Origin: Alphaproteobacteria bacterium
Lineage (GTDB): Bacteria; Pseudomonadota; Alphaproteobacteria; Micavibrionales; Micavibrionaceae
DNA: 64,000 bases
NCBI GenBank assembly: GCA_021775995.1
Contig: JAJFGS010000013.1
Location: forward strand, 434,001 to 498,000
Direction of reading: 5' to 3'
Made by a program: the position numbers and the translations under genes
Notes under the pieces: generated by a model
What the model was told of the DNA's origin: nothing
Seen by the model: only the letters and a program-made list of their open reading frames with translations
Database searches by the model: none
Shown: piece after piece, positions 46,058 to 49,869 of the stretch
How positions within the stretch are numbered: the first letter of the stretch is position 1
How the letters are laid out: each line of letters begins with the position of its first letter

Positions 46058-46387
46058 ATGATTGATGATGCAGAAGTAAAAAAAGAAAAGAAAGCCGCCA
46101 AAATATTTTTTGGTGTTGCTAAACTGGCGGGTGTCACTGTTGGGTTGTTTATACTGGCATTGATTGCGCCTCTCATTCATGAGGCGGACACAACATCAGA
46201 AATGCAGGGGCTGTTTAATAAGTATGGCTTTCTTATGATGTTTCATATTGCTGTGATCGTTTTTACTTTTATATTTATGCGAAACAGTATCGTAGCGGTG
46301 CATAGGATCATGCAATTTCTATATTTGCCCTCCGTTACAATTATGTTTCTTTATGAAGCCTATGGAATTATGACGGGGTCAGAATGA
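46058..46387 (+). CDS. Hypothetical three-helix membrane protein in the suf operon
   Basis: The 109-residue protein has a very basic N-terminus (EVKKEKKAAKIFFG) and three predicted helices (about 18-38, 54-73 and 80-100). Its stop region overlaps the sufC start by 4 bp, so it is translationally coupled to sufC. The ribosome binding site is purine-rich. No family recognised. Confidence 0.6.
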   Translation: MIDDAEVKKEKKAAKIFFGVAKLAGVTVGLFILALIAPLIHEADTTSEMQGLFNKYGFLMMFHIAVIVFTFIFMRNSIVAVHRIMQFLYLPSVTIMFLYEAYGIMTGSE

Positions 46388-47133
46388 TTGAAATTAAAAA
46401 CCTACATGCCGAAATTGATGGCAATGAAATTCTGAAGGGATTAGATCTTTCCATCGGTAATGGTGAGGTGCATGCGATTATGGGCCCTAACGGATCAGGG
46501 AAGTCCACGTTGTCTTACGTGCTTTCTGGCCGTGATGGTTATGAGGTTACGAAGGGGTCAGTCACGTTAGATGGGGAAGATATTCTTGAAATGTCACCAG
46601 ATGAACGTGCCGTCGCAGGTTTGTTCTTAGCCTTTCAATATCCTGTTGAAGTTCCTGGTGTTCAAATGACAACATTTTTGAAAACAGCGTTGAATGCCGT
46701 GCGTAAAGCACGTGATGAAGATGAATTGGACGCCATTGGTTTACTGAAATTAATGAAAACAAAATGCAAAGAGCTGAATATTTCAGATGAAATGATGAAA
46801 CGGGCGGTGAATGTTGGGTTTTCTGGTGGTGAGAAAAAACGTAATGAAGTTCTGCAAATGGCGATGTTAGAACCTAAATTCGCGGTGCTGGATGAAACAG
46901 ATTCTGGTTTAGATATCGATGCGCTTCGTATTGTCGCTGATGGTGTGAATGCATTACGGGCAAAAGAAAGATCGTTTCTTGTTATTACGCATTACCAACG
47001 TTTATTGGATTACATCAAACCTGACAAGGTTCATGTTTTGGCAGAAGGACGCATTGTGAAGACGGGTGGCCCTGAATTGGCGTTAGAGCTGGAAAAAAAG
47101 GGCTATGCCGAATTCGTAGGAGAAGCCGCGTAA
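46384..47133 (+). CDS. sufC: Fe-S assembly ATPase SufC
   Basis: The 249-residue ABC ATPase begins MIEIKNLHAEIDGNEILKGL. Walker A is GPNGSGKST, the Q-loop region is FLAFQYPVEVPGV, the signature is FSGGEKKRNEVLQ, Walker B with the SufC-specific FAVLDETDSGLDIDALR follows, and the switch His is in VITHYQR. It drives the SufBD scaffold. A palindromic repeat starts 5 bp after its stop. Confidence 0.97.
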   Translation: MIEIKNLHAEIDGNEILKGLDLSIGNGEVHAIMGPNGSGKSTLSYVLSGRDGYEVTKGSVTLDGEDILEMSPDERAVAGLFLAFQYPVEVPGVQMTTFLKTALNAVRKARDEDELDAIGLLKLMKTKCKELNISDEMMKRAVNVGFSGGEKKRNEVLQMAMLEPKFAVLDETDSGLDIDALRIVADGVNALRAKERSFLVITHYQRLLDYIKPDKVHVLAEGRIVKTGGPELALELEKKGYAEFVGEAA

Positions 47134-47137
47134 TAGT

Positions 47138-47170
47138 CCTCTCCCTTTAGGGAGAGGATTTAGGTGAGGG
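47138..47170. repeat. Left palindromic end of the DUF559 element
   Basis: The hairpin CCTCTCCC/GGGAGAGG with TTTA loop (47138-47157) is followed by ATTTAGGTGAGGG. Its reverse complement matches the right end at 47496 at 29 of 33 positions. The GGTGAGGG part doubles as ribosome binding site for the gene starting at 47174. Confidence 0.85.
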
Positions 47171-47173
47171 TAA

Positions 47174-48646
47174 ATGTTAAAAGATAAAGCGAGAAATTTG
47201 AGGAAAAATCAAACAGATGCGGAAAAGCGTATCTGGAATGCTTTGCGCAATAGACAAATTGATGGAAATAGGTTCCATCGCCAATTCGTTATCGGACAAT
47301 ATATTGTTGATTTTGTTTGCCGTGAAAAAGATTTGATTGTTGAAATTGATGGCGGCCAGCATAGTGATAATAAAAAAGATATAGAGCGTACTCAATATTT
47401 AGAAAAAGAAGGTTATCGTGTTATCCGTTTTTGGAACAATGATGTCATGAATAATTTGGAAGGTGTATTACAAGATATTACGAAAGAATTAGAAGCCCTC
47501 ACCCCAACCCTCTCCCTGAAGGGAGAGGGGGTTTTACCGACACCCAAGATGGAGCGTTGGAAATACACCAACCTGCCTGCTAAGTTGAAGAAATTCGATT
47601 TGCAGGAGGGTGAGGCCGATATTGTTCTAAGCGGTATGACGGATTACGCCTATGCGTTTCCAAAAGTCATGGATAGTTTTCCGACTTGGGCAAAGGAGAT
47701 CGTCAATAAGCCTGTGCCAGGAGAACAAAGATATAAAGATATGATGCTCTGGCAGGCAGCGAATGATGTTTTGAAAAATGGTTTTATTCTCGATGTACCG
47801 GCGAATGAAAAAATTTCAAAGGCGTTAGAAATTACCTATACAGGACATGATAAAAAGCAAACAACTGCGCGACAAGTTATTCGTATAGCTGAAGGTGCGG
47901 AAATGACATTGATTGAATATCAATTGGGCGCAGGACAATATTGGAATAATATCGTAACGCAAGTTGAAGTCGCGAAAGGGGCAAGCTTTAAACATTATCG
48001 TTTTCAAGAAAATTCAGACGAAGCTGTTGTAACGCAAAACACGCATATTGTGATGGCAGAGAGGGCGGATTATGAAGCCTTTACCTTCACAGGCGGTGGC
48101 AAAGCCAGTCGTAACCAAGTCCATGTTGATATGATGGGTGAGCATGCTGTGTGTCGGTTAAATGGTGTCAATATGCTGGATGGATCGGAGCATGGGGACA
48201 CAACGATAACAGTTGAACATCAAGCACCCAATTGTAATTCATTTCAAAATTATCGTACCGTTGTGACGGATACGGCAACGAGTGTTTTTCAAGGCAAAAT
48301 TCACGTTCATAAAATCGCACAAAAAACTGATGGATATCAGATGGCAAAATCTTTGTTGTTGTCTGGGCAGGCAACAGTGAATACAAAACCTGAATTAGAA
48401 ATTTATGCAGACGATGTAAAATGTTCACATGGGGCGACAACGGGGCGTCTTGATGAAGAAGCATTATTTTATCTGCAGTCTCGTGGCATTCCAGAAGCGC
48501 AAGCACGTAATTTATTAATCGAAGCCTTTGTGAATGAAGTTATCGAAGAAATTAGCCATGACGATGTTCAAGAACAAACGGCACATATTGTTAATCAGTG
48601 GCTAACCCGAGAAGATGAGCCAGCAAATGAAGAATGGTTGGATTGA
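47174..48646 (+). CDS. sufD: DUF559 nuclease-like domain fused in frame to SufD
   Basis: The 490-residue protein is a chimera. Residues 1-110 are a DUF559 (Vsr-like) domain with RKNQTDAEKRIWNALRNRQ, FHRQFVIGQYIVDFVC, LIVEIDGGQHSDNKKD and VIRFWNNDVMNN. Residues 109-121 (LTPTLSLKGEGVL) are encoded by the repeat. SufD starts near residue 122 (LPTPKMERWKYTNLPAKLKK) and runs to the end with TGGGKASRNQVHVDMMGEHA and CSHGATTGRLDEEALFYLQS. SufD normally has its own start and 20-45 residues before this point; these are gone. An internal ATG at 47549 has no good ribosome binding site, so the fusion is probably made. Confidence 0.92.
   Translation: MLKDKARNLRKNQTDAEKRIWNALRNRQIDGNRFHRQFVIGQYIVDFVCREKDLIVEIDGGQHSDNKKDIERTQYLEKEGYRVIRFWNNDVMNNLEGVLQDITKELEALTPTLSLKGEGVLPTPKMERWKYTNLPAKLKKFDLQEGEADIVLSGMTDYAYAFPKVMDSFPTWAKEIVNKPVPGEQRYKDMMLWQAANDVLKNGFILDVPANEKISKALEITYTGHDKKQTTARQVIRIAEGAEMTLIEYQLGAGQYWNNIVTQVEVAKGASFKHYRFQENSDEAVVTQNTHIVMAERADYEAFTFTGGGKASRNQVHVDMMGEHAVCRLNGVNMLDGSEHGDTTITVEHQAPNCNSFQNYRTVVTDTATSVFQGKIHVHKIAQKTDGYQMAKSLLLSGQATVNTKPELEIYADDVKCSHGATTGRLDEEALFYLQSRGIPEAQARNLLIEAFVNEVIEEISHDDVQEQTAHIVNQWLTREDEPANEEWLD
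47496..47529. repeat. Right palindromic end of the DUF559 element
   Basis: CCCTCACCCCAA is followed by the hairpin CCCTCTCCC/GGGAGAGGG around TGAA (47508-47529). It is the inverted counterpart of the left end and is translated as part of the linker between the DUF559 and SufD domains. Confidence 0.85.
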
Positions 48647-49869
48647 TGTTTAATATTCCTGATCGAAATGAAAATTTTCCGATATTCAAAAACAACACAG
48701 GTCTGGTCTATTTGGACACCGCCTCCAGTGCGCAGAAACCACAATGTGTGATTGATGTATATAATCGTGTTTATGAGACGCATTATGCCAATATTCATCG
48801 GGGTTTATATCAGTTTTCTCAAGTAACAACTGAGAAGTATGAGGCGGTGCGGGGCAAAGTTGCTCAATTCATCAACGCACCGAATGCGGATGAGGTGATT
48901 TTTACGCGTAATACGACAGAGGCGATTAATCTGGTCGCCGAGAGCTGGGGACGAAAGAATCTACAAGCTGGGGATGAAATTATCATAAGCGGCATGGAAC
49001 ATCACGCTAATATCGTTCCATGGCAGATTTTATCCGAAAAAATTGGGTTTAAAATCAAGATTATTCCTGTTTTGGATGATGGCACGCTCGATTTTGATGC
49101 TTTTAAGGCGTTATTAAGTGAAAAAACTAAGTTTATTGGACTTGTTCACGTTTCTAACGCTTTGGGCACTGTAAACGACGTTAAATTGATCGTAAATGAA
49201 GCCAAAGACTTCTATTCTGATATAAAAGTTCTGATTGATGGATCGCAAAGCATTGTGCATAGCTCTGTGGATATCCAAGATATAGGCTGTGATTTCTTTT
49301 GTTTTACGGGTCACAAAATCTATGGCCCTAATGGTGTTGGGGTTTTATGGGCCAGAGCGGAGATTTTAGCCGATATGCCGCCCTATCAGAGCGGTGGCGA
49401 TATGATTGAAACGGTGAGCTTTGAAGAAGGTGCGACGTTTAAAAGCGGCGCAGCGAAGTTTGAAGCAGGAACGCCAGCCATTGCCGAGGTTATTGCGCTT
49501 GGAGAAGCCATTGAGTTCATCAATGAGGCTGGTATGGAGAATATTGCGGCACATGAAGTCGCTTTGCTCAATATTATGATGGAGCAATTGCAAGCTGTTG
49601 ATGGTTTAACGTTTTATGGCACTGCACCGAATAAAGTCGGTGTGGTTTCTTTTACGGCCAGTTGGGCGCATGCGAGTGATATTGCGATGATCCTTGATCA
49701 GTGTGGTGTTGCTGTACGTAGCGGTCATCATTGTTGTATGCCGTTAATGGCGCGATTTGGTATTGATGCCACGGTTCGTGCTTCACTTGGACTATATTCT
49801 AATGAAGCAGATATTGAGGCGCTTGTGAATGGATTGAAGAAAGCAAAAGAAATGTTGGGGAGTTACTGA
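48646..49869 (+). CDS. sufS: Cysteine desulfurase SufS
   Basis: The ATG at 48646 overlaps the sufD stop by one base and gives MFNIPDRNENFPIF; an upstream in-frame GTG at 48634 is less likely. The 407-residue group II desulfurase has YLDTASSAQKPQCVID, YANIHRGLYQFSQVTTEKYE, the PLP lysine in FFCFTGHKIYGPNGVGVLWA and the active cysteine in VRSGHHCCMPLMARFG. It provides sulfur to SufB directly, since no sufE gene is present in the operon. Confidence 0.95.
   Translation: MFNIPDRNENFPIFKNNTGLVYLDTASSAQKPQCVIDVYNRVYETHYANIHRGLYQFSQVTTEKYEAVRGKVAQFINAPNADEVIFTRNTTEAINLVAESWGRKNLQAGDEIIISGMEHHANIVPWQILSEKIGFKIKIIPVLDDGTLDFDAFKALLSEKTKFIGLVHVSNALGTVNDVKLIVNEAKDFYSDIKVLIDGSQSIVHSSVDIQDIGCDFFCFTGHKIYGPNGVGVLWARAEILADMPPYQSGGDMIETVSFEEGATFKSGAAKFEAGTPAIAEVIALGEAIEFINEAGMENIAAHEVALLNIMMEQLQAVDGLTFYGTAPNKVGVVSFTASWAHASDIAMILDQCGVAVRSGHHCCMPLMARFGIDATVRASLGLYSNEADIEALVNGLKKAKEMLGSY

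Follow-up and report, generated by a model that had tools for sequence, protein, structure and literature searches.

The closest described relatives of the repeats considered here are the PIT or intrastrand triplex motifs (TM, or TMECO), for which Holder et al. gave in 2015 the E. coli consensus CCCTCNCCC-N3-6-GGGNGAGGG-N3-GGGNGAGGG (PMC4666352). In the parts of that paper drawn on here, the motif is reported to form a triplex in solution, its inverted pairs always combine a type A with a type B motif, and it is treated as intergenic and as a source of instability with no associated mobility gene; neither "DUF" nor "ycjD" occurs in the main text. We describe a 392-bp unit whose terminal inverted repeats are of this kind and enclose a gene of the DUF559 family (PF04480), located between sufC and sufD in a 64,000-nucleotide stretch from an Alphaproteobacteria bacterium of the family Micavibrionaceae (assembly GCA_021775995.1, contig JAJFGS010000013.1, positions 434,001 to 498,000; the whole stretch is called the window). 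The unit is quite probably a copy of a widespread minimal selfish element, in which a gene for a DUF559 nuclease of ~110 amino acids lies between inverted PIT/triplex repeats and presumably spreads by action of the nuclease on these repeats. Such elements are apparently undescribed so far: in the open-licence literature we found no link of DUF559, or of ycjD, the annotated DUF559 gene of E. coli K-12, to intrastrand triplex or other such repeats, and an earlier report elsewhere is possible.

Several other systems share some of these features. As characterized in the sections of the source papers used here, REP/REPIN sequences and their RAYT enzymes (PMC2817692, PMC3116915) likewise combine a palindromic repeat, alternating pairs, few linked nuclease genes and gene-less miniatures. 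However, the nuclease here is of the PD-(D/E)XK kind (Vsr/EDxHD type, PF04480) rather than an HUH tyrosine Y1 enzyme (PF01797), the repeats are C/G-rich triplex motifs, and the gene is found at many sites and fuses to its neighbours. The EDxHD homing endonuclease I-Bth0305I has a homologous catalytic domain with the same fold and detectable sequence similarity, but according to the portion of its description considered (PMC3943268) it is longer and carries DNA-binding modules, whereas DUF559 consists of just the catalytic domain. I-Bth0305I is entered in the PDB as a mobile intron protein, whereas DUF559 is bounded by palindromic ends and no intron or intein was seen. Rickettsia palindromic elements, as far as the consulted part of their description goes (PMC10969869), are also palindrome-bearing units in frame in conserved protein genes (here sufD, folA, Mfd, PriA and TrpF); they are set apart by description, being ~150 bp long and known from Rickettsia, whereas a coding element from many phyla is seen here. 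Finally, the layout recalls an insertion sequence, with inverted repeats bounding a mobile unit around one gene and within-genome homology that stops at the repeats. By the features tested, the element is a full member of none of the REP/RAYT systems, homing endonucleases or Rickettsia palindromic elements, and we regard it as a distinct kind of minimal selfish element, whose mechanism we infer below.

The features of the locus are as follows, in window coordinates and with the basis of each assignment in brackets.

47138..47170, plus strand: left terminal repeat, with the hairpin at 47138-47157 and the G-rich foot GGTGAGGG at 47163-47170; a degenerate PIT/triplex motif and the source of a Shine-Dalgarno-like sequence (sequence, inverted-repeat search, folding)
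47174..47494, plus strand: DUF559 part of the gene, a Vsr/EDxHD-like PD-(D/E)XK nuclease domain that makes up residues 1-107 of the fused open reading frame, ORF (ORF, profile match, predicted structure)
47496..47528, minus strand: right terminal repeat, inverted, translated in frame as LTPTLSLKGEG; with base 47529 it fits the E. coli TM consensus (sequence, inverted-repeat search, consensus of PMC4666352)
47174..48646, plus strand: DUF559-SufD fused ORF, 490 amino acids (ORF, profile match)
47529..48646, plus strand: SufD part of the fusion (SUFBD_core), ~49 N-terminal residues fewer than in the closest relative (profile match, comparison with relatives)
46384..47133, plus strand: sufC, ending 4 nt ahead of the left repeat (ORF, profile match)
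48634..49869, plus strand: sufS-like class-V aminotransferase, the next gene of the operon (ORF, profile match)

An inverted-repeat search recovered the unit as the first-pass annotation had drawn it, 392 bp long with 33-nt inverted ends (29 of 33 positions, or 88%, complementary; arms 325 nt apart) and an 8-bp pyrimidine/purine hairpin in each arm (47138-47157 and 47509-47528). With up to 3 mismatches allowed, the end motif occurs twice in the window, against 0.00 occurrences expected from shuffles, and the DNA folding energy of the ends is -7.6 to -7.8 kcal/mol (z -2.4 to -3.0). The right end (47496-47529, minus strand) fits the printed E. coli consensus, and the left end fits it incompletely, with 8-bp arms and a longer second loop. 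The likeness to the published motif comprises the hairpin CCCTCNCCC/GGGNGAGGG and the GGGNGAGGG foot, together with the inward orientation of the feet that the four E. coli pairs read share; the difference is that no mobility gene is reported for the published motif, whereas the repeats here accompany DUF559. A triplex would here be a prediction from the motif.

The stop codon of sufC ends at 47133, which leaves a gap of 4 nt before the left repeat and corrects the 5 bp given earlier. The ATG of the DUF559 gene at 47174 stands directly behind a Shine-Dalgarno-like GGTGAGG that is part of the foot of the left repeat, and in agreement with the annotation this foot can, to judge by its sequence, serve as the ribosome-binding site of the gene. 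The ORF matches DUF559 at residues 3-107 (E 1.2e-39; 135 bits against a curated cut-off of 20.6) and SUFBD_core at residues 226-452 (E 7.8e-77), so that both the DUF559 domain and the read-through into SufD had been recognized correctly: a single stop-free frame of 490 amino acids crosses the right repeat, enters SufD at the conserved LPTPK-ERWKYTN and continues to the SufD end. An internal ATG (the M of MERWKYTN) is a possible restart site; as an alternative to the chimera, translation of SufD could begin there, and the product would then lack the LPTPK stretch.

Comparison with relatives dates the unit. The genus contains nine other genomes (in what follows, G and L numbers denote individual genomes and loci), and in all eight congeners read at the sufC-sufD junction the unit is absent. 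An ancestral DUF559-SufD fusion, inherited by a whole order without repeats, is ruled out by these eight genomes, and on their sequences the unit is new in the host species. The closest relative (G005) has a SufD that is 72% identical and ~49 residues longer at the junction. As far as is visible, the normal sufD start has therefore been removed, as first proposed; short N-termini are also seen in element-free relatives, for example G002. Because SufD N-termini are variable in the family, the loss of ~49 residues may be tolerable.

The same alleles bear on the main rival explanation, in which DUF559 is a free homing endonuclease that homes into existing PIT/triplex repeats by cutting them, solo repeats being empty sites and the flanks of the gene being target halves. 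It draws strength from I-Bth0305I, the closest relative outside DUF559 by both fold and sequence, and yet the empty sufC-sufD alleles of the eight congeners have no repeat either. We regard homing as unlikely on this and further evidence given below.

The host genome (2.0 Mb) holds one DUF559 match by profile search, and the 20-base pattern of the palindrome (up to 2 mismatches) occurs in it three times: at both ends of the unit and once elsewhere. The third copy is inside folA (L004 1256-1819, G000:C14), in an ORF of 187 amino acids that matches DHFR_1 (E 1.3e-49). There, the reading frame is lengthened by a net 18 residues (54 bp) through a solo repeat of the triplex type; it is absent from 9 of 9 congeners, and the DHFR is otherwise conserved relative to them (83% identity to G006). 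Since congeners lack the unit at sufD and the added stretch in the otherwise conserved folA product, the two repeat loci of the host genome are, as read from the alignments, in-frame insertions into conserved proteins, one with the gene and one without it.

Suf genes are the site of 6 of the 18 DUF559 loci obtained from the search of relatives (L001, L035-L039). In a DUF559 tree built from ~100 columns, with weak support, the sufC-sufD elements of the window and of G033 do not group together; the closest neighbour of the window copy is the SufD/SufS copy of G052. Suf junctions look to have been hit more than once, a single old insertion with later replacement being a possible alternative. Other, unrelated ORFs are found between sufC and sufD in relatives, namely members of the glyoxalase family (L017, L019), a GNAT protein (L025) and further ORFs (L020, L022), and insertions seem to be accepted readily at this junction. 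Upstream of the DUF559 gene in the G014 suf operon, a related motif appears by eye to have expanded to a short tandem array (L038 4360-4560).

Signs of movement come from copies within single genomes. Two DUF559 units of G211, located on different contigs, share 79% identity over ~660 bp, from outer hairpin base to outer hairpin base and not beyond, with unrelated flanks; two units of G138 share 81% identity over 467 bp, a stretch bounded by the outer foot at either end. Homology of both pairs over the whole unit, ends included, is a second point against a homing gene that enters repeats already in place. The best within-genome pairs reach 79-82% (L078/L091, L101/L105 and L093/L110, the last with homology that extends beyond the unit), and the best pairs between species, L100/L114 (84%) and L065/L066 (87%, whole loci), are orthologous sites. 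Together with the empty orthologous sites, these copies ending at the repeats support the minimal mobile element that the first-pass annotation had proposed.

A further set of alleles was found in a genus of seven species (g71), at the junction ahead of a radical-SAM/HemN-type (HemW-like) gene. G195 and G296 have an empty, tight junction; an open DUF559 frame is present there in G275, G299 and G298, and a decayed remnant with an internal deletion in G086. Because the empty junctions are tight, insertion is likelier than loss here, and the absence of any repeat from the alleles of G195 and G296 is again not what homing into repeats would leave. Miniature units of ~139 bp, which resemble the repeat pair beside the g71 gene, occur at at least 14 places in G299, at least 4 in G298, at least 3 in G275 and at least 1 each in G195 and G297; among the matches listed, the g71 genomes also have many single ends.

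Gene-less units are also found in E. coli. K-12 has a complete miniature unit between hrpB and mrcB, of which strain 2010C_5028 retains a single hairpin; the unit is absent in ST131, O169:H41 and 2020N21-110. Four inverted pairs were read, all with inward feet and three with a similar interior; a search with one such pair gave whole or partial matches at 1-14 places in each of 4,763 of 5,426 genomes, with coverage of at least 80% in 4,194 of these. From their layout, the inverted pairs of E. coli can be read as gene-less derivatives of DUF559 elements. The published A/B pairing is paralleled in DUF559 loci: by eye, L177 combines a type A loop on the left with a type B loop on the right, and type B loops are also seen at the right ends of L148 and L157. 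TMECO no. 9 lies ~170 bp behind ycjD.

The association between gene and repeats was assessed on 187 DUF559 loci, a convenience sample from one-domain searches. It consists of a first set of 108 loci (window genome 1, relatives 17, even class sample 89, E. coli K-12 1) and 79 from a multi-phylum scan. For the class sample we used the window, 29 loci returned and 60 fetched, leaving out 48 weak or partial rows (E ~1e-17 or worse) and 6 stronger rows (further copies in G067, G102, G109 and G158); one weak row (G039:C113) was left out of the search of relatives. The multi-phylum scan was queried with conserved DUF559 stretches; more than 570 places were confirmed and the 80 best of these taken, so that it leans to relatives of the window's protein; these 80 loci contained 83 domain matches, from which 4 duplicates and 2 with short flanks were dropped. 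Two of the 108 loci lacked full flanks, and scoring therefore covered 106 and 77 loci, or 183 in total. A flank was counted when a hairpin with a 7-bp pyrimidine arm was present within 160 bp of the gene.

Hairpins were found on both sides in 68 of 106 loci of the first set and 65 of 77 multi-phylum loci (133/183 together), on neither side in 5 and 1 (6/183), and hence on at least one side in 177 of 183. By comparison, random windows of the same loci had hairpins on both sides in 0.12% of 4,240 and 0.29% of 3,080 cases, and 551 other ORFs of these loci (mechanically called, at least 150 amino acids) had a hairpin on the left in 20 cases, on the right in 27 and on both sides in 2. Window shuffles, random windows and the boundaries of other ORFs rule out a chance origin of the hairpin flanks. 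The G-rich foot points toward the gene at 122 of 149 left ends and 125 of 151 right ends, and outward at 37 and 32. The association of DUF559 with its own palindromes, called constant in the first pass, is the usual state of these genes in the sample rather than a rarity, and the expectation that flanked genes would be missing from orthologous sites in relatives holds at the junctions described above.

The two ends of an element also belong together. Repeat types differ by arm, loop and foot in the comparison of 108 loci, and the alignment of the left and right ends of the same element scores on average 27.0, versus 14.9 +/- 0.35 in 5,000 shuffles (133 elements). An element's own partner end is strictly the best for 47 of 133 elements and within the best ~5 for 82. 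Inside single genomes the matching sums to 953 versus 810 +/- 36, a value reached in 0 of 20,000 within-genome shuffles (14 genomes, 33 elements). Each element's ends thus resemble one another more than they resemble those of other elements in the genome, which counts against homing, where they would be halves of an existing target. Similarity between the proteins correlates with similarity between the ends (Mantel r 0.24; largest of 2,000 shuffles 0.15), and this persists in 115 elements thinned for close relatives (r 0.20; largest of 2,000 shuffles 0.17). Paired ends and covariation with the protein would be the expected trace of a protein that acts on its own ends; co-inheritance within the unit gives the same.

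At the level of genomes, repeats and gene co-occur. We compared 241 genomes of the class, evenly drawn and not further corrected for kinship, with a strong DUF559 match defined as E below 1e-20 and one hairpin type counted, CCCTCTCCC-N2-8-GGGAGAGGG, which totals 889 occurrences versus 5 for the reversed control. At least three hairpins are present in 32 of 57 DUF559 genomes versus 7 of 184 others (odds ratio 32, p 9e-18). The effect is present in both size classes (29/47 DUF559 genomes versus 5/69 others at 3.0 Mb or more, 3/10 versus 2/115 below), which rules out that genome size is its only cause. The hairpins outnumber DUF559 matches in repeat-rich genomes, for example 99 to 3 in G102, an excess that homing into solo repeats would accommodate. 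The RAYT domain Y1_Tnp (PF01797) is unrelated to hairpin abundance (7/52 versus 32/189, odds ratio 0.76, p 0.67), and true Vsr gives a weaker, non-significant link (12/46 versus 27/195, odds ratio 2.2, p 0.07).

The PF01797 figures concern a second alternative, that the repeats owe their movement to some other mobility enzyme, such as a Y1/RAYT transposase, with DUF559 as a passenger enclosed by two of them. This would agree with the REP-like behaviour in general and with one PF01797 match in the host genome (E 1.5e-9); the missing relation between hairpins and PF01797, the sole alternative mobility enzyme compared, makes it very improbable.

The protein itself resembles known nucleases. Its structure was predicted with a pLDDT of 91.6 (AlphaFold2, 34 sequences), and E17, D46, E57 and D59 are invariant in these 34 sequences; on this model, the window domain has the PD-(D/E)XK/Vsr fold with conserved acidic residues. 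The best matches among solved folds are NGO0050 (PDB 3HRL, Z 16.8), I-Bth0305I (PDB 3R3P, Z 12.1, 89 residues, rmsd 2.3) and Vsr (1CW0, Z 9.9), and a profile search of PDB sequences up to E 0.1 returned only NGO0050 (E 1.5e-36) and I-Bth0305I (E 5.8e-4). YcjD and NGO0050 belong to the same DUF559 family as the window domain (sequence search, E 2.5e-8). A profile scan of the region before the SufD part revealed no DNA-binding module beside the catalytic domain, only DUF559 and a sub-threshold MTES_1575. An earlier study, in the part used here, assigned YcjD to the PD-(D/E)XK superfamily, close to Vsr (PMC1189080).

In a third alternative, DUF559 would serve the cell as a Vsr-like gene of repair or restriction, and the repeats would mark unstable points of insertion that gather passengers. 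The consulted part of a Caulobacter study ties the DUF559 protein VsrA to DNA damage: cells that lack a cytosine methylase need it for their damage response (PMC12907096). This suggests an action of the family on DNA, and Holder et al. connect the motif with instability in the sections cited (PMC4666352). We consider a cellular repair gene improbable, for it leaves unexplained the matched ends of each element, the weaker and non-significant link of hairpins to true Vsr, the near-universal flanks of the multi-phylum sample and the in-frame insertions within unrelated conserved genes.

Insertions of this kind are recurrent. The frame runs at least 60 residues past the domain in 22 of 187 elements. 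According to Pfam searches, DUF559 is fused to the N-terminus of SufS-type aminotransferases (3), RimM (3), an EPSP-synthase family enzyme, CbiC and a PP-loop protein. It is flanked by host domains, or interrupts a single one, in Mfd, class I tRNA synthetase, PriA (in 2 unrelated bacteria), TrpF and YkuD. In Rickettsiales bacterium AM-377-L16, two elements of one genome lie in frame within Mfd and class I tRNA synthetase (L153, L200). The PriA element is located between the DNA-binding and helicase domains in a Gastranaerophilales genome (L193) and in an alphaproteobacterium (L051), apparently by independent insertions as far as their sequences tell.

On the preferred reading, a selfish element moved by its own nuclease, the element would consist of a single DUF559 gene and two inverted repeats, mostly with the hairpin outside and a GGGTGAGGG-like foot inside. 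The DUF559 protein would recognise its own type of repeat, perhaps as a folded hairpin and foot, and nick or cut there; repair of the break would then copy the element to a new place, either entire or as a single repeat or pair of repeats, by analogy with the spread of REP sequences proposed for RAYT enzymes and the self-spread of homing endonucleases. Copies that bring their own ribosome-binding site and arrive in frame, between genes or where a protein tolerates them, would persist because the operon is not broken. In the window, the element would have landed after sufC, taken over the sufD start and become the N-terminus of SufD.

Several observations weigh against this reading. We know of no cleavage of these repeats by a DUF559 protein. 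The all-against-all comparison of 108 loci contains no recent identical copies, within-genome pairs being at best 79-82% identical. Neither the G211 and G138 copies nor the sites at sufD, folA, hrpB-mrcB and the HemW-like junction show a target-site duplication; there is no near-identical pair of empty and filled sites among them, and the empty and filled alleles at sufD and E. coli hrpB-mrcB differ by further bases. The gene upstream of DUF559 is on the same strand in 112 of 153 cases, the downstream gene in only 94 of 153. The Mantel correlation is only modest in size. In K-12, the left side of ycjD is a different inverted repeat and the right hairpin is degenerate. Seven of the 184 genomes without a strong DUF559 match carry at least three hairpins, and 25 of the 57 DUF559 genomes have fewer than three of the counted type; with one hairpin type counted, DUF559 genomes that have other types score low. 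The authors of the Caulobacter work propose, in the part of it considered, a role of VsrA in mismatch repair (PMC12907096).

A broader proposal, for which we see the case as evenly balanced, is that DUF559 together with PIT/triplex repeats forms a separate class of bacterial selfish DNA in many phyla, with a nuclease that recognises the repeat folded into a hairpin or triplex and drives the copying of itself, single repeats and pairs, the PIT/TM repeats of E. coli and many other bacteria being its ends and debris and new in-frame protein segments its by-product. PIT/intrastrand-triplex repeats had been described by 2015 without a mover, and the DUF559 link provides a candidate enzyme that is testable in E. 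coli K-12, which has the DUF559 gene ycjD and 23 listed repeats. If true, this would place a further pair of repeat and nuclease beside REP/RAYT, assign a role to a structurally solved family of unknown function, and uncover an origin of chimeric proteins, as SufD, SufS, RimM, PriA, Mfd and DHFR carry a translated element.

Some minor observations concern individual genomes. The PF04480 search gave no match in the E. coli control genome despite ycjD in K-12, which strain variation of ycjD may explain: the ycjD region between fabI and sapF (L084, L282, L283) is covered to at least 80% in 3,334 of 5,375 matching E. coli genomes. Two strains without ycjD were read; in these, eef efflux genes or other genes occupy the interval from fabI to sapF, and neither offers a clean empty site. 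In Sinorhizobium (L236, L237), the DUF559 gene appears by eye amid inverted copies of a longer unit with outward feet and a shared interior. The S. meliloti units may resemble RIME repeats. S. meliloti Ak57 has no clean empty site, and an IS4-type element adjoins. The region is at one single site in 7 matching Azospirillum records. PADLOC gave only weak matches to defence systems. Among the records listed, DUF559 occurs in 44 plasmid and 3 phage records, with six plasmid loci read in sequence, and in evolved Legionella populations, according to the part of the report consulted, repeated segments with a transposase and DUF559 are recombination hotspots (PMC12308824).

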